From contig OX359191.1 of NCBI GenBank assembly GCA_947172415.1, positions 8,479,130 to 8,543,129 of the forward strand: 64,000 bases of DNA, given 5' to 3'. Shown here piece by piece: positions 13,102-60,088 of this stretch. The position numbers and the translations under genes were made by a program. The notes beneath the pieces are model-generated. The model was not told where the DNA came from. It worked only from the letters and a program-made list of their open reading frames with translations, and did no database searches. The stretch's first letter is position 1. Each line of letters begins with the position of its first letter. Source of the DNA: Chondrosia reniformis (taxonomy: Eukaryota; Porifera; Demospongiae; Chondrillida; Chondrillidae).

Positions 13102-16100
13102 ATGTCTTCTGGTCTGTCTGTTACCGCTCCCATTTCAGAACAGGAATGCGATGGCGAAGGAATTGAGGACAACCTACCAAGTACTTTTACAGTGACAGAC
13201 GAAGACAAGTCCAGAATATCCGTGTTGGCGTCTTGTTGTACCCGCTTTCGCAGTCAGTGTAAGCGTTTTGTAAGTTGGACTAGTAGGGTTCTCTTCAGTC
13301 GTACGTGGCCCTCCATTGTCATCTTGCTTTTGGTGTTGGTACACTGTGTCCTTCATCTCCTCCTGGCCATCCTCGTCTATCCACCAACTGTCGACCTGAA
13401 TATGAAGTCCTTCCAAACGCCTCAAGGAGAAGCATCGACAAATTTCGATACACTGCGAGTGCTGTTTTCTGACATTAGCAATTCGAAAAGGGCTTCCCGT
13501 CGGCGAAGAGAAGCAGATACCTCTTCACCCAATCCCAGCTCTGCTCCTGACTGCAAGGAAGCTGGCAGTGGCTACGTAATACAGAATCATCTCTACCTAG
13601 ACCTTGTATTTATGGCACCCACAGGTTCACAAACAAAAAATATATTTACCAAAGAAAGATTACGTGATATTCACAAACTAGAGATAGCAATATTCAACTC
13701 GAGTCAATATCAGGCTTTTTGTCCTAAAAACTATGGCAAATGTCTGCCACTGAATTCTTTATTGACGTATTTTTATCCCTCCATTGGTAAATACAATAAG
13801 GTTGTGTTTGATGGTCAAGGAGATCGGTTGTTTGACATAAATACCACTATGGCGGACATCTTGACACACACAGAGAGCTATTGGTATGTAGACAGGGAAT
13901 TTGGACCTGACAACCCTCAGAGTGCAATACTCCGCACACAGGTACAAGTAGGACTCCCATTGAAGGGTTATTGCAATAGCAAGGATCGTAAAGATGAACA
14001 GCTTGCAAAGGCCAAAACTTACATACTATCTCTTGTTTCATTCATCAAGAGTTCTTTCGCAGAGTAAGAAGCATTAAACAATTTATATGATACAACTAGT
14101 TGCTTTTAATACTCCCATGCTTAATTATTAAACAATACATTCCATGAGTGTATTAAATTATAGTCCTCCCTAATATGGAAAGGTTATTGAGAATTCATGG
14201 CTTATATATATATGTATGACCTATCTTGTATGTATAGGAATGTGAAGGTACTCTATGGAGGACCTGTAGTGATGAAGTATGAGGTGGAGGAGGCTGTGAA
14301 CCATGATGCAAAGTTGGCTGGAATCAGCGGTTCACTGATACTCATTCTACTCTTTATAATGTCTGGATTCTCCTTAAGTGCCACTCTAATGGGGATCACC
14401 ACCATATTGAGTTCCTTTCCACTAGCATTCTTTGTATATCGTATAATATTTAAAGTTGAAACGGTTGGAGCTCTAAATGTGGTATCGCTTTTTGTAATCA
14501 TGGGAATTGGCATTGACGATGTGTTTGTGTTTCTTAATACCTTTAAACAGACATCTGGAATGGAATCTATACCACTAGCTCATGAAAGATTAGCATTTAC
14601 AATCATTCACGCTGGGAAGTCAACATTCTTCACTTCTCTCACAACAGCAGTAGCTTTTTATGCCAACACACTGACAAGTGTAAGTTCACCAATATCCATT
14701 ATACGTATATGTACTGTATATATTATTAGTATTATTATATTTAAGTGCACCATGTGCAAAATAGACACTAGGGCTATATGCCCCATGCAGCACTAAACAA
14801 AAAGTTTATAAACTTGTTAAATAAATTACAGTTCTCAGAAAATATATAATAAATTCATTGAAATCTTTTCTTGCATATATTCTTCATATACGTATATACA
14901 CTATTTGTGGCAATGCTATATATAACATCTCTGTATTGGTTTAACATGCATGTGTGCATTAATGCTTCATTGGAGTAAAACCCAAAATAGTATATACAGT
15001 ACTCTTTGGGTCGGTTGTCCAGACTGGACATTGCAATCAGTAATCAGTTAGCACTCGCAACTACCCTTTGAACCAACTTTCCCACTAGAAAGATGTCAAC
15101 ATGCAGCTAAAACATTTTTACTGATTACCAATTGCAATGTCTGGTCTGGACAACCGACCCAAAGAGTACTGTATATATGCAGCATACATATATACATATA
15201 TAGGATGCAACCATGAGATATTATTATTTTAAGGCATCTATATATAAACCAATATTTAATATAATCAGGAAATGCCCTTTCAAATGGACACCTGAAGCCT
15301 CATGCGCCTGCAGATATCATTGCAACAAGTACCATGCATAGCTATGTCTCTGTAGCAGATCCTAATTACATATGTATAGAGATTCCTTTTCATGCCAAAG
15401 AAAGAAATATGTGTTATCTACAAAATAGTTTGGATTCCAATGTAGAGCATGAAAGGGATTTATTAAGGTAGTAGGTATGGTTAAAGTGATCAAATCAAAC
15501 TTGCACGATTTTTGGTGCAGATGTTTGGTTATGGGTCTCATTCACATTCACAAAGTTTTAGGCTGGTCACGACTAGTTTGCAAGAATTATAGGAGAAACA
15601 AAAAGACATTTAATCTATGCGAAATTTCAAGTGTAATAACTGATTAATTGATGGGCGCTATTACCTAACAACTACTGCTATGCGCAGGTATTCCCAAACA
15701 TTCAGATGCTAGCGAGAGGTGAACTGTTGAAGTTTGAGATACGCCTGCTCTGGCATTGTACTGTCTGAGATGAAGGTGTTGCTGAGCTATCTAGTCTGTA
15801 ACGTTACTAACAAATCAAACGCGGCTTGGTTCATCGGAATGCACATGGAAATGCGCTAAAAATGATGGGAGGCCACTTAGAAAATCGCACGCGCAGACAA
15901 GTTATCACAACTTTCGCAACTTTTATATGAAAAGTAAATAACTTGGCCATGAAAGAGAAAATGGAGGTGGCCTCCCATAGGATTGTGCACACATGTTTGT
16001 AGATTATATATGCCTAGTTTGGTCTTTCCCAGCCATTAATGGCATAACTAGATAGAGTTTTCTTGAAGGTACTTGAGTTTTTCTGAGGAGATATTTTTTG

Positions 16101-29454: not shown

Positions 29455-32400
29455 CTAGCTTAGCAAAAGCTCCATGCAAGTCACAGTTAGGTTAAATTGT
29501 GTAACATTATAGTAGCTTGACCAAACTTCCAAATACCATTGAATACCATGTGTTAACAAGCCTGCTGGAATCAATAATAGTGGCAAGGTAAGCATGAAGA
29601 TGAAGCAAAGATTTCGTGAGTATATTCTTTTACTCCTGGAGAATGAATAATTCCAAGCTTGAATATTGCTGGGTTTAAACTTACAATTTCTTACATATGT
29701 GACACACATCTCTCTTCCTATGGCTACATAACTAAATCTGCTAAATACAGAGTATAAGAAAAAATGCATTTCCAAAGTTATAAAAATCAGTGATATTTCC
29801 AATAGTAACATCAGTATAAAAATTATCATTGTTACTGTGTATTCCATGTGAAGAGTACTTATCATAGCATCTTCGAATTCTGCTTTGGAAGAAGGGGAAT
29901 CCTTTAAAATATCAAACATCTGTTTATACAAAGAATATGTCTTTAAAGAAGCTAATCCTGAGGAAGAGATAGATAATCCATATTCTTTTTTTGGATACAA
30001 AATAGCATTTGGTAGTAATACCAATTTCTCATTATTTATTGTTAAAGAACAGTTTTTAAATAATTCTAGAGCTCCAGTTAAATTACCCAGAAGGAATTCA
30101 TAATATGCTAGTTGTAACTGATATTGTATGAAAAAATGGATTTTCTTGTCAATTTCCATATAAGGAAGAAGATCTGAAGCTCTTTGAGTATAAATCTTGG
30201 CTTCTGTAATATTTCCAAAATGATAATACACTGATGCCAGTGTATTTACTAGAGTAAATTGTGACTTTTTGACTCCTTCGAGAATTAGATTTCTTCTCTG
30301 TTCCATTTTTTTGGTCTTAATTTCAATGTCAACATAATTGGCCATGGATAGTACGTTAGCAAACAGTTTGTCTTGCTTCCTTCCAGTTCTTACTATTAAT
30401 GTTACCAAGTCTTTTGGGAGGGGTGTGCAAGATTTTAATCTACTGGAGCAACCCATTGATAATTGTAGCTGTGTAAGTATGTTAAAGTTCATGATCTGCA
30501 CGTCAACAGTGAACAGTAAATCCTTAGAAAGCATCATCTCCGATATACTATGCTGATGCTTAAAATAATTCTTATCATCTAAGAGTACATTTCCTAAACA
30601 GTATAGTCTTGCCTTCTGTATTTCCAAAGTAAGATTACCTTCATAAAGTTGTATAGTTTTATTAAAACCACCAGTAAGATTATCAATAGCCAGGATACCA
30701 CGAAAGGAATCCAATGTGAAGAACATGTCTGAAAATGTTTGCATGTAATCATTATATTCTCTTTCAAACTGCATGAGTTTCTTAGTTTTTGTCCACAACT
30801 TAGCCATACTTGTATTTTTTAAAATAGCTGTTAGTTTTTTATACAATGCCATGTATGTAGAATTTAAAGCAATTAAAATATTTTTTATAGCCTTATCCCT
30901 TTCGTCAATATTAATATAAGCATCTACTAATAACTTTGCTATTGTTAATTCTTCTGAATTGGTAGCTCTGGCTGCTTCTAAGAATGTTATAGCTTCTTTA
31001 TACTCTCCCAGAGCCATAAGAATTGATCCAATCTTAAGATCTGCATCACTTATATCATCTGTCTCATTAGACAGGTTGAGTAAGAATTTCAATGTAGCAT
31101 TATACATTTCACTGTTATTTGCAGCTTTGAAGAACCTTGCCATGTTGACCATGTATTTTGTAAGGTGTACTGAATCTAGTAAACAGCTCTTTAAATGGTC
31201 AATAGAAACATTAGAGTTTAAAAACATTTTTTTTGGCATTGGAAAAGAGTTCCTTAGCCTGGATAGAAGAATTTCCATGGTGATCTAAAACAAAGCTTGA
31301 TAAACGAGAAACAAATTGTAAGCTGGAGCCAGAAGAAGGATAGCATTTCTTTGTTAAAGTGTTAAATAAATTTTCTTCTAAGTACTTGTAAATTTTGAAC
31401 CAAAATTCCTGAACGACTTTTAATGGATACTGAAAGTATAGCAAATCATAAGTTAAGCAGGAAAAGTTGGAAATAGTCTCCAATTGTTCATGTCCCTTTA
31501 AGGAAGGTAAACTTGTAAAGTTCTCCAAAACAAACAAAAAATTTGCACTATTAGCTGACAGAAATTTTGCAAGCTTAAGAGACTCATGCGGCAACTCCGA
31601 ATGAAGTTTAATTGACTCCTTCATATAAAAAATTATAAATATATCAGCAAATGCCATCTTTGTTTTGCTAGGTACTGTCTGCCTTCCATAACTTTGCAGT
31701 AAGGCAGGGAAGTGATACTGCTTGGTATATATACTAAATTGAAGTAGAGAACGTAATTCTAACTCGTGCAGACAGTTAGAATTGACATTAAAATGTCTTA
31801 AGATTGCTTCTGCAGTGTCTTTAGTAAATGAATAAGGAAATAATACGGAAACCTCAAAACAAACTCTATCACTAGACTTAAGGTAGCTAATAGCCAAATC
31901 AAAAACAAGACTTAACTTCTTATTTATATGTTCATGGCTCAGCGTGGGAATTGGATCCTCTTGAAGCTTCAGAATAATTTTATCAACTTCACCTGATATA
32001 GACACATTACCAGATAAAAGAGAAGCAACAATTTTCAGAGCTAGTGGAATGCCTTCAACCGATTCTGCAAGCAGAGTAGCCTTTTCAAGAGGCAAGTCGA
32101 ATTTATGCTGAAGAACAGTAAGTGAAGCATTTAAGGTCAAGTTTGGGAGATGGACCAAAGTAAAATCATCTAAATATTGTTTGTGATATTGTGTGGTTAA
32201 GATTGCATTGACTCCTTTTGATTGTTTGACCAATTGATCTACAAAACTATCAAATTCTTGACTATCATTTCTGTTATTGGAATACATCAGACTATCAACT
32301 CCATCTAAGATAACGACACAGTATTGCTTATATCTAGACCAACTATAAATATCCTCGTTGGAAACAAATTTCACTAAAATTTTACCACGAAGAACACTTA

Positions 32401-34003
32401 GAATTTTAACTCTGGCATCTCGCATAGTGGAAACTTGATCCAGAGGCACAAAATATACACTGTAACCCTTCTCTATGAGTTTATATCCCACAGTGGTTGC
32501 CAAGGCTGTCTTTCCATGTGCAGGTGGTCCTGTTATAGTGACAATATGAGGATTAGACATGCTGCTATTCAGAATGGCAGAAAGTACTTTAAAAAACTCA
32601 TCTTCTCTTCCTACAAAAGGAACTGGCTGTGACGGTAACCCACTTCTAATAAGAGCCTTCTCACTCTGATCTTTAGAGACCATGAATATAGCACTTACTA
32701 TAGCTGCTGTAACTATAGCTACAGCAATACCTATATACGTACAATATACATAAGAAGAAAAATCTACGTACATGCATTGCAAATTGTATTAAATTGTGAG
32801 AACAGAAAAATAACCTTCACATATGTATGTGTGTACAGTGAAATATCATTGCTTCAAACCCATATGCTCCTCATATGTATATTCATTGAGCTCCTCAGGA
32901 GACATGATGGCCAGAGTACAATCCAAAGTCAAATAATGAGATATCACAGCTTTAAGATCGGCTCCAAATTTTTCAGGTTACAATCCTTCAGAAAATTATT
33001 CCTAGGAGAACTTTAATGAGCTACAGTTTCAATGAATGCCTTTGTTTGCTTAACTTAAGTCTAAAAACAGAAACAGCTGTCTGACTTAGTGGAACAAAAG
33101 AAAAAAGAGAAGATTCCTGTATCCTCATCCCAAGCTCTCACCAGGTTTAATTCCCTAAAGGCTTATTAATTTATTACAGAATAAGGATAACATGTAGGAA
33201 AATGATTATTAATGCATCTTACTTCTCTATGGACACCAACCTGGACCCACTAAAAATATTATATATCATACACTTACCGTAATATAGTTTTTCCTGTGTT
33301 AACATGTTTGGTATTTTCCATCTTTGTTTTTCAGATATAATTTGTCCACAAAGCTTGGGAAATGAATCTGAAATATTCGTGGAGCACACATAAACAAAAT
33401 TGTATTAGACAAATATTGTCTGTCTACCTCACCATGTATGGCTACAGGTATGTTTCTGGCCTGAGGTAGCAATGCAAGTACATTGGTAAAGTCCTCAATT
33501 TTATCAGGTTCCTCTTCCAATGTATTTAAAACATCCTCCAAAATGAACTGGCACTTTTCATTCTTTGTGTAATTCATGCGAGACCTCTCTAAACCATTAT
33601 CACGCTTGATTAAATGCTTTGTATATAATGCTGGAGCAACTTCATAGAGTGGCAGCAGACTCAACTGGTCATAGAACTCCTGGATGACCCTGCAAGCAGC
33701 TTGCTTTCTAATGGCTTGTGTGGCAACAGAGAGAAGAATGCATTAAGGCAGGAATATTAGTATAGCATCGGCTTCACACTAAACTAGTTCAACTAATAAA
33801 TTTACCCATACTACAACAAATAGTACTCCATTGGAGAACTTAATTCTACCATAGATATCTATATTTACTTACTATCTACTTACTAATACGAATAATAATT
33901 ATAGTATGCATATTTACTTACTATCTGAGAATTGTAGCGAGAATTGTAGCGAGCTATTATTCGTAGCAGTGATTCGCTTCTTTTTACGGTGCTTCTTTGG
34001 CAT
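29455..34003 (-). CDS. CARD-like / TM / NB-ARC STAND NTPase / helical repeats / C-terminal TM protein, one frame break
   Basis: Not matched to a named gene. Minus-strand exons: 33922-34003 (ATG, basic MPKKHRKKKR start), 33433-33714, and one 3.3-kb exon 29455-32730. Exon 2 encodes a six-helix Death-fold-like, probably CARD, domain (VIQEFYDQLSLLPLYEVAP ... KCQFILEDVLNTLEEEP). Exon 3 starts with a hydrophobic stretch (IAVAIVTAAIVSAIFMV), then NB-ARC signatures in order: FVGREDEF, P-loop GPPAHGKTA, Walker B CVVILDGVD, sensor-like AILTTQYH, GLPL-like EGIPLAL, a winged-helix-like region and an MHD-like HFPALLQSYGRQ. After that come about 450 residues of helical, TPR-like sequence and two strong hydrophobic segments (MIIFILMLLLEISLIFITL; LCFIFMLTLPLLLIPAGLL). 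The frame shifts by one base at a run of eight A (31227-31234). Many Asn-x-Ser/Thr sites sit in the helical part. The large exon is AT-rich and intronless, unlike its neighbours. Confidence 0.72.
31227..31234 (-). other. A8 homopolymer where the reading frame changes
   Basis: The upstream frame (GCC AAA AAA AAT GTT) stops at 31211. The downstream 600-residue frame opens across the same bases in the +1 frame (CCA AAA AAA ATG). The two frames overlap only around this run. One A fewer would give a single frame of about 1,212 codons. Confidence 0.8.
33061..33205 (+). repeat. Dispersed element, copy C (5' part missing)
   Basis: Shares AAACAGAAACAGCTGTCTGA, TTCCTGTATCCTCATCCCAA and GCATGTAGG-like blocks with the other copies and ends in GTAGGAAAATGATT. 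It lies in the second intron of the CARD/NB-ARC gene, antisense to it. Confidence 0.65.
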
Positions 34004-34106
34004 ATCTTCGTTACAAACAAGCTGATTTAAGAAATCTCTCTGGACACGCCCACTCTGTTTCATTAGAGATTTTCCCCATTGCTGATTTCATAAAGGTGGA
34101 GTCGTG
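34004..34106. promoter_or_regulatory. Divergent promoter between the CARD/NB-ARC gene and BTBD10/KCTD20
   Basis: Only 103 bp separate the two start codons. No core promoter motif is evident. Confidence 0.6.
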
Positions 34107-37721
<3,615 letters not shown>

Positions 37722-46078: not shown

Positions 46079-49000
46079 TTAAGTTGAAGTCATTAGTTCC
46101 AACTGAGAGAGAAGTGGAAAGTGGTCCGAGGGGTAGTGAGGGTTGGGACACCCTAGTACCCTCCACTGCTGAAACCACTCCTTGTTCACTGGGCCCAATA
46201 GACCTTGAAGATGCAGGAATTCACTACTATAGAAGATGTAGTCAATTATTCCTTTGAAGTCGTAGGTGTAATTGGAGTATGATATTTGATCAGGCATATA
46301 AGCACTTTTGATGGAAAAGTGATGGACGAGCTCCTTCTTATCAGGACTGGTCGCTGCTATCTGTGAGATGAAGCCATCATATGAGAACTCCTGAAGATCT
46401 GGGTGGGAGACAGGTATTTGTGCGTTGGTTAGGTACTCCACCACACTGGAATCAGGGAGGGAATTGAAATCCCCACATAGGATTAGGGGAATCCCCGGCT
46501 TTGAACCCTTTCCGATACCTCTATCCTGCTGGATGGTGGACACTATCCTGTCCAGTTCGGACATCAACATGACCATTTGGATGAGCTTGACGTCGCGATA
46601 CTCTGGGTCCCAATGAATGTGTGCATTTGAGACTAGTATATGCTGTGGCTGTCCGTCGGAGTTTTCACTGATGGAGGGATCCTTGATCTGAAGAAGAGTT
46701 GATAGTCCAATGTTATCTCTCAGCATTACACGGTTAAGCATGTCAGAAGATCCGTGGGCGTTAGCCATGGCTAGCTGATTAAACTCCACTAAATATTGGT
46801 CCACAAACTGAAACCTACAAAGCATAGTACAAAACATAGTTCCAGTAACTCAAGAGAGCCAAATAAATGACAAGCTAACCAACAGAGAGAGTGGTTCAAT
46901 TATCACAGAATGTACAATGACAGAAACCTTTCCATTGATCCAGACTCACTTTGACTTGTGATAGAAGATTGCACATCCATCCACATACTTCCTCTCGTGC
47001 TCATCCATTGTACGCGCTCTAGACTTTGGCTGGAATATTCCATCATAGCCATGCTGACTCAGTTCAGGATGGAAAAAGTTGTAAAACTGTTCGGTTTCAA
47101 CTTCCTAAAACACAAAAAGAACATGCTACATACACGTATATAGACTTGTGAGAATTCTGTTTCTGTTGCATTGTCAGTTTCAGTGTCATGTGAGGTGAAC
47201 TGACTACATGAACAATCTAACATTTTCTTATTTTACATGCTACGTATGTCTACTTTAGAGAGTTAAGGTCTATAGGGAACTAAACCTTGCGAGAGCTTGG
47301 GAGTAGGTGTATGTAATATTACCTGTAAGGCAACTAAGTCGGCCATGTTCTCCACTATCTCCTTCAGAAGTTGTCCCTTCCGGTACTCCCATCCAAGTGC
47401 CCAGGAGGGGCAGTAGCCATAGACTTGTCGAGTGGCGTAGCGGTCTGACAGGATGTTGTAGCACATGATGGTGAAGCGAACTAGAGGATGTAGCAACTTG
47501 TAACACTTACTGATATATAGCAACTTGCAACACCTACTAATAGGCATATAGCTTGTACTGTAAAACCTACTAAGAAGCATATACCACATCACATGGGGTC
47601 ATCTATATTGCACTTGTGAATACAATATCTCATATTACTGTACTTATGGTTGAGTATTCAATATCGAATAACGTATAATGTACTTACGAACAAATTAACA
47701 CATATAATGTTGATATTACAACGTCCGGTTTTTAAAAACCAGAGCCAATAATTGTGAGACTAGAGTTTAAACATTTAAAATATACCCTATCTACGTAAGT
47801 GACATATTTTTACATTCAGAAGCAATAGATAAGATGTAGGAATAGATCACATGTCTGTCACATGTACCTCTGTGATGGTCCATAGTTTGAGGGTTCAGGT
47901 CTATCCATTCTCTATCAGGAGGTCGCGGATCCACTATAATACACATCAAACAATAATGTAATGCATATACTGTAAATCCCTTATTATTCCCGTGCTATTA
48001 AATTTAGCTACGTATATTAACAATTTGACATTTACCACTAAAATTAGAGTTCACTAAATATGGTACTACTACTATACTGTATTACTGTAATTAACTAACA
48101 AACCTTCCATGCATCTTCTAAGTCGCTAATATTAAATTCCGCTATGTAGGGGTAAAATCCAGTTTCGCTAACTTTTGGTTCCGCTTAAATAAAGGGATTT
48201 ACAGTATACACATAATAGTATGCTTCAATGACTTAGGAAGGACACCATTAACCATATAAACTATAGGAAAGGAGGATTATTTTTCATATGTATTGAATAT
48301 GTACATATTTTAGGCAGCCTTGCAGAAGGAAAGGAGTGAATACAATAGAATGTACGTACTTAATGCCTAAGTGCAAATCACACTCATGAATATGAACCGT
48401 TTTATAGGTTATACAATATATTATAAACAATATACATCAAATGTCGGTGTCTGTGTAACAAGACACTCCTGAATGCAGTGAACTTCATGCTAGTAAACAT
48501 TAGGAAAGCCAAGTGGGTTCACTTGGGAAGTCATAAAGAGGTTGTCAACAATGAAAGAAACACTACATGTTCTCTAAAATACAGAGCAAAAATCAGTGAC
48601 CATTAAATTCACTTACAAACTATTAAGAAATTATACACACAGAGTAATCAATATGAACAATATCTTATATAATGTGAACAATATCTTTTGAGGAATCAGC
48701 AAAAGGCCTCTCTCTCATAGCAAGGCTCACTGACAGTATGGTATCAAAGGCTGAATAAGGCACTCACTTTGGAGGTTGTCCAGTAACCAACTGACCAATC
48801 GGGTAGTCCCACTGTGTTCAGACGTCATAGACAACAGATCTGGGGAGAGGGGATTCCCCGATATCCCTAGCACTTGGAGATGAAAGAGCCTCCCTAGTTC
48901 ATAAGGCAACGCTCGCAGCATATTATCATTAAGCAGAAGTTCCCGTAATTGGACCATATCCCCAAGCTCCACTGGAAGGCTGCGTAACTTGTTACTTGAT

Positions 49001-57896: not shown

Positions 57897-60088
<2,192 letters not shown>

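Follow-up and report, generated by a model that had tools for sequence, protein, structure and literature searches.

Can a nucleotide switch of the APAF-1 type be built into a membrane? The question is raised by a locus of the sponge Chondrosia reniformis on the minus strand of a 64,000-nucleotide stretch of DNA (G000:C3:8479130-8543129; hereafter the window, to whose numbering unlabelled positions refer), in which a CARD-like domain, a hydrophobic helix, an NB-ARC-type STAND NTPase module, a TPR-like helical region and two more hydrophobic helices are predicted to follow one another. APAF-1 (CARD-NB-ARC-WD40) is cytosolic, characterised NLRs are cytosolic as well, and to our knowledge animal STAND switches are treated as cytosolic in general. 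If a membrane lies between CARD and NB-ARC, either the nucleotide switch sits where there is little ATP or the CARD is out of reach of its partners, and either arrangement would be unexpected. Our preferred reading, to which we assign a probability of roughly 0.46, is that the locus belongs to a C. reniformis family, with at least four members, of membrane-anchored STAND NTPases related to APAF-1, in which the order CARD-TM1-NB-ARC-helical (TPR-like)-TM2-TM3 (TM, transmembrane helix) places the switch on the exoplasmic side and the CARD in the cytosol.

Architecture of the locus and its paralogues

The paralogue search that the initial annotation had called for was made with proteins in the C. 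reniformis genome (117,379,552 bases, 15 contigs; the assembly is described as 117.37 Mb in 14 chromosomes plus the mitochondrion, PMC12181767). It yielded three further long loci, L015, about 600 kb off on C3, L016 on C2 and L017 on C11, which match the NB-ARC piece of the window gene with E values of 3e-27 to 3e-35 (27-31% identity). Their large-exon frames are unbroken over 1021, 996 and 941 codons, respectively, and each is preceded on the same strand by a CARD-like exon with a phase-1 donor; when the two exons are joined, 1115 (L015), 1094 or 1114 (L016, two possible donors) and 1066 (L017) residues remain open. All four loci, which lie on three chromosomes, agree in order and strand and offer a phase-1 junction that works.

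At the window locus, predicted splicing (34003-33922 / 33714-33433 / 32730-) gives a single open frame from an ATG, with GT-AG sites and both introns upstream of the third block in phase 1; intron positions in all four genes were derived from the DNA. Putative exon 1 (33922..34003, minus strand) carries the ATG, a basic N-terminus and the phase-1 donor GTAAGT, and exon 2 (33433..33714, minus strand) encodes the CARD-like domain and ends in the phase-1 donor ATG/GTGAGG. The paralogues differ in that an ATG sits inside the CARD exon itself. The third block reads, 5' to 3', as a hydrophobic helix, the NB-ARC-type motifs, the TPR stretch and two further hydrophobic helices. It had been taken for one large exon, and from this for a retrocopy or a late-acquired block. 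It consists instead of two overlapping minus-strand frames, 32788-31211 and 31284-29455, and neither origin is supported: the three paralogues have the large exon too, and for many NACHT matches of this genome the open frame is likewise long, at about 550-650 codons.

The three predicted membrane helices bear out the initial annotation. Scored by Kyte-Doolittle hydropathy, with membrane ends placed by hand, TM1 (32678..32731, minus strand; 2.41) follows directly on the splice junction, which its first residue spans, while TM2 (29779..29835, minus strand; 2.87) and TM3 (29554..29610, minus strand; 2.47) lie near the C-terminus, the latter followed by a short tail up to the stop at 29455. One hydrophobic helix ahead of the NB-ARC module and two at the C-terminus are predicted in all four genes at values over 1.5, the last helix of L015 being marginal (1.63), and in each the hydrophobic stretch of TM1 has full length. 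The membrane-tethered CARD-STAND order originally proposed therefore recurs in the three paralogues. The likeness is one of sequence from TM1 through NB-ARC into the first part of the region that follows, and one of position and hydropathy elsewhere.

The NTPase module (approximately 31680..32620, minus strand) was delimited by motifs, Pfam and alignment. As first described, it carries FVGRE, GPPAHGKTA, VVILDGVD, LTTQ and EGIPLAL, and residues of the P-loop (G78, P80, G83, K84), the TT pair (T188-T189) and the PLA motif (P250-L251-A252) are invariant in all four genes. Conversely, the MHD-like position that had been listed with these motifs is degenerate, reading FPAL in the window copy against MH(S/N)L in the three paralogues. 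L017 (4879-2057, minus strand) stands apart in Walker B, with LLLNDAD in place of the ILD of the other copies, and has possibly lost the first acidic residue. A profile of the four genes (A1) matched the PDB entries of the plant NLRs NRC4 (1.8e-7) and NRC2 (2.8e-5), the bacterial regulator AfsR (2.8e-6) and, weakly, APAF-1 (1z6t, 0.0084). NB-ARC passed its Pfam cut-off (23.5 bits) in L015 (32.3) and L017 (23.8) and fell below it in the window copy (21.6) and L016 (19.2). The name NB-ARC for the module is that of the initial annotation, and the Pfam scans of single proteins are less clear-cut than the profile matches. NACHT remained below its cut-off of 26.7 bits (12.7 in the window copy, 13.1 in L015). 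No LRR match was found by Pfam in the window's open reading frames (ORFs) or the paralogues, and no WD40 match either, among Pfam hits listed to E 5 for the former and to E 1 for the latter. By Pfam, the family shows neither the NACHT-plus-LRR make-up of bona fide NLRs nor the WD40 repeats of APAF-1.

For the N-terminus, a Death-fold-like domain had been suggested. The L016 exon scores 25.2 bits against CARD (cut-off 23.9) and that of L017 matches CARD_2 at 3.2e-4, under the cut-off; the window and L015 exons returned no Pfam match. When 63 chains were re-examined by VIA-align against the window CARD model, CARDs or CARD-length apoptosome chains made up 15 of the 22 matches listed, including the top ten. 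The window N-terminus is probably CARD-like, indirectly so, through the L016 exon and these structural comparisons. The expected helical repeats were recovered as a TPR stretch (30883..31038, minus strand) that exceeds the cut-offs for TPR_14 (29.6 bits against 23.5) and TPR_19 (26.1 against 25) and is embedded in a longer, mainly helical-looking region (about 31680-29840).

The reading-frame change

The NB-ARC frame of the window copy ends with a stop at 31211, and the TPR and C-terminal part continues in a different frame that opens at 31284, leaving a 74-base overlap (31211..31284, minus strand) with a run of eight A at 31227-31234. The change may be a lesion, a small intron or an assembly error. 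Its exact place could not be fixed by aligning the window copy to the paralogues with frameshifts allowed, the penalties being lenient, the region diverged and several of the shifts returned spurious. A base error is unlikely given the quality value of 69.8 stated for the assembly (PMC12181767). We give about an even chance to the reading that the window copy is decaying, as a pseudogene or null allele, within an otherwise working family. Consistent with decay are the two frames where the paralogues have one, the replaced MHD position and the broken family fragments elsewhere in the genome: C11:949105-950029, which is 84-92% identical to L017 and contains stops, C5:4037683, C2:4076537 and C2:9435307. 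Beside L017, at L059 (G000:C11:946500-952500), a broken partial CARD-TM-NB-ARC copy lies between two near-identical 324-codon membrane-protein ORFs, a tandem duplication.

Arguing against decay, the P-loop is intact and 609 codons stay open after the break, which at its base composition has a chance probability of about 3e-22; we infer that selection has maintained the second frame up to the recent past or does so even now. A candidate in-phase intron of 127 bases (31385-31259, the best of 58 candidates) could also bypass the break. Its acceptor is good and its donor (CAA/GTACTT) scores 6/9, against 7/9 for the gene's two other donors, but it would remove about 42 codons that appear exonic in the paralogues. 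Finally, the primary assembly is reported to have a k-mer completeness of 69% (PMC12181767), suggesting strong heterozygosity, so that the alternate haplotype could differ at this position. The window copy may accordingly be (i) a polymorphic or young pseudogene, or (ii) a gene spliced around the break.

Topology and rival readings

A TM1 that spans the membrane would put CARD and NB-ARC on different sides of it. The initial annotation had remarked on many Asn-x-Ser/Thr sites in the sensor region and had offered AT-rich Asn codons as a possible cause. We counted these sequons (N-x-S/T) from TM1 to TM2 in the four genes (3,424 residues) against shuffled expectation and found 50 where 26 were expected (z about 5), a roughly twofold excess over what composition would give. 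N-x-T, the better glycosylation acceptor, was observed 24 times against 9.3 expected, and N-x-S 26 times against 17.0. The excess is confined to the true sequon register: for nine control motifs, whether reversed, offset or built on other residues, z lay between -1.4 and 0.74. When the three full paralogues are aligned with the window NB-ARC piece, 34 columns hold the start of a sequon, and in four of these columns two or three rows share it.

Cytosolic-type controls from the same genome showed no such excess. Five NACHT-type ORFs (five of six non-family matches, L008 being excluded; three were NACHT matches and two were judged NACHT-type by eye, and several are closely related) had 8 sequons against 12.2 expected, one additional NACHT ORF had 1 against 2.6, and 24 CARD domains elsewhere in the genome (24 of 25 matches, with L016's own excluded and one stop removed) had 6 against 6.9. 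An fn3 ORF, a soft control with sequon-bearing repeats at its end, had 8 against 3.0. The window's 766-codon frame had 11 against 8.5 and is no clean control. Taken together, the register-specific excess, the flat control motifs and the cytosolic-type controls favour an exoplasmic NB-ARC opposite a cytosolic CARD. In the window copy taken alone, lysine and arginine (K/R) counts at TM2 (1 vs 0) and TM3 (4 vs 0) agree with this placement.

The chief competitor for the family as a whole accepts the same proteins and keeps NB-ARC and the helical region in the cytosol, with TM1 either not spanning (a hairpin or in-plane helix) or leaving the CARD end outside. Several results weigh against the exoplasmic family reading. 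When K/R were counted within 15 residues of the hand-set membrane ends in the four genes, TM2 had 12 on the NB-ARC side and 3 on the other, which in three of the four genes speaks for a cytosolic position of the NB-ARC side; TM1 (9 towards the CARD, 7 towards NB-ARC) and TM3 (7 vs 5) were near ties, and TM1 of the window copy (1 towards the CARD, 3 towards NB-ARC) went against the exoplasmic reading. The sequon excess differs between the genes: it is carried mainly by the window copy (21 vs 7.9 expected) and L017 (11 vs 5.2, P 0.009), is weaker in L015 (10 vs 6.2, P 0.08) and is absent in L016 (8 vs 7.0, P 0.40). The family's CARD exons, which would be cytosolic, are not depleted of sequons (6 vs 3.0), and in the fn3 control the reversed motif was likewise raised (6 vs 3.0, z 2.0). 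A single cysteine is invariant within the region covered by all four alignment rows.

The remaining adverse points concern family and domain assignment. nSTAND3 is the best Pfam family for the window copy (32.4 bits, cut-off 27.2), and this family, nSTAND1 (L015), AAA (L017) and AAA_22 (L016) rival or outscore NB-ARC. A single-sequence AlphaFold2 model of the NB-ARC piece reached a predicted local distance difference test score of 37 and was not used. Matches between paralogues stop by residue 563 of about 1000, the four CARD exons align with one invariant column, and the window CARD exon and C-terminal frame matched only themselves genome-wide at E 0.001. TPR was absent from the Pfam results for the three paralogues at E 1, and was seen in the window copy only.

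The conserved P-loop would also suit a cytosolic switch. That placement leaves the register-specific TM1-TM2 sequon excess, absent from the cytosolic-type controls, without an account, and it must accommodate a TM1 that is full-length and hydrophobic in all four genes; for the variant with the CARD end outside, no hydrophobic stretch was seen by eye N-terminal of the CARD in the spliced N-termini. We hold the cytosolic placement to be a tentative second, well short of even odds, and the exoplasmic model to be somewhat likelier on the sequences at hand.

That CARD and NB-ARC exons are parts of separate genes is improbable: the introns are derived from DNA alone and the CARD exons are barely alignable, but order, strand and phase-1 junction are repeated at all four loci. 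That a membrane STAND gene was recently acquired from bacteria, which one large exon and the occurrence of NB-ARC proteins in bacteria might suggest, is very improbable, since the five loci (23-25% identity) brought up by one prokaryote scan with two peptide-pattern seeds match no further than query residue 389, short of the C-terminal part, and a CARD-like exon with its intron is found in all four copies.

Under the exoplasmic model, the CARD would face the cytosol, TM1 would take the chain across the membrane, the NB-ARC and helical region would be glycosylated in the lumen of the endoplasmic reticulum (ER) or secretory pathway or at the cell surface, and TM2 and TM3 would anchor the chain again. 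The helical region would sense a ligand or stress signal, upon which NB-ARC would exchange nucleotide and oligomerise, clustering the cytosolic CARDs and recruiting CARD partners such as a caspase or adaptor. Every step of this scheme, from splicing and topology to nucleotide exchange, oligomerisation and CARD signalling, is one that we infer. That a glycosylated luminal or extracellular NB-ARC and helical sensor drives a cytosolic CARD, possibly in response to exoplasmic ATP or microbes, so that an APAF-1-like switch would have been converted to a membrane receptor, is a doubtful proposal, again clearly below even odds. Use of ATP inside the ER has a precedent in luminal AAA+ ATPases such as torsin, and sponges with dense symbionts are a plausible setting for a membrane-borne sensor of microbes or damage. 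The sequon result makes the topology directly testable, and three copies with unbroken frames exist.

Relation to other genes and known systems

A BTB_3 gene (34095-34367, plus strand), BTBD10/KCTD20-like, begins about 100 bases from putative exon 1, head to head with it, which suggests a common promoter region. Other exons of the window above Pfam cut-off encode Patched/sterol-sensing (14191-14793, plus strand), Exo_endo_phos (46082-46849, minus strand) and spermine synthase (58605-59234, minus strand) domains. Genome-wide, 101 NACHT matches were obtained, all above cut-off (139 candidates, 101 scored), many of them in large open frames clustered on C7 (0.9-1.4 and 2.1-2.8 Mb); NB-ARC matches were few, and NACHT appears to have undergone a big expansion beside them. 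The idea that the species lacks a canonical APAF-1 was dropped on account of an APAF1_C match (G000:C4:2843499-2843816, minus strand, 51.5 bits) in a 2760-codon open frame, a candidate giant APAF-1-like or NWD-like gene.

Like APAF-1, the sponge family has a CARD, here CARD-like, followed by an NB-ARC STAND module; the weak profile match to 1z6t points the same way, and CARD entries of APAF-1 rank among the top VIA-align rows for the window CARD model. Unlike APAF-1, it has a predicted TM between CARD and NB-ARC, two predicted C-terminal TMs and no WD40 match. For a death receptor-like plan, with a sensor outside and a death-fold domain in the cytosol, the sequon excess speaks in favour and the charges at TM2 against. 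MAVS is a membrane-anchored CARD protein that signals by clustering and depends on a separate RIG-I-like sensor; the sponge proteins resemble it in having a CARD-like domain on a predicted membrane anchor and differ in having an NTPase, which MAVS lacks.

In the literature searched, from whose coverage subscription journals were mostly absent, we found no description of the order CARD-TM-NB-ARC-TPR-TM-TM and no paper pairing 'NB-ARC' with 'CARD-NB-ARC-TPR'. In placozoan NLR-like proteins, NB-ARC is accompanied by effector domains of the CARD or death-like kind and by WD40 or TPR repeats; these proteins differ from the sponge family in that the accessible text on them mentions no TM (PMC6321704). 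Membrane-bound NACHT-LRR NLRs have been reported in sponges (PMC12909245, citing Yuen 2014); as there described, they resemble the present family in being sponge STAND proteins predicted to be membrane bound, and differ in pairing NACHT with LRR instead of NB-ARC with TPR. In Halichondria panicea, membrane-bound forms are reported in all receptor classes (PMC8242945). Actiniarian NLRs, also membrane-bound STAND receptors of an early animal, carry three to five TMs clustered N-terminally, and the accessible part of that account mentions neither a CARD-TM-NB-ARC order nor a sequon signal (PMC5094078). Membrane-bound NLR-like proteins are thus already known from both sponges and sea anemones, and what appears new in C. 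reniformis, within the literature searched, is the order of the elements.

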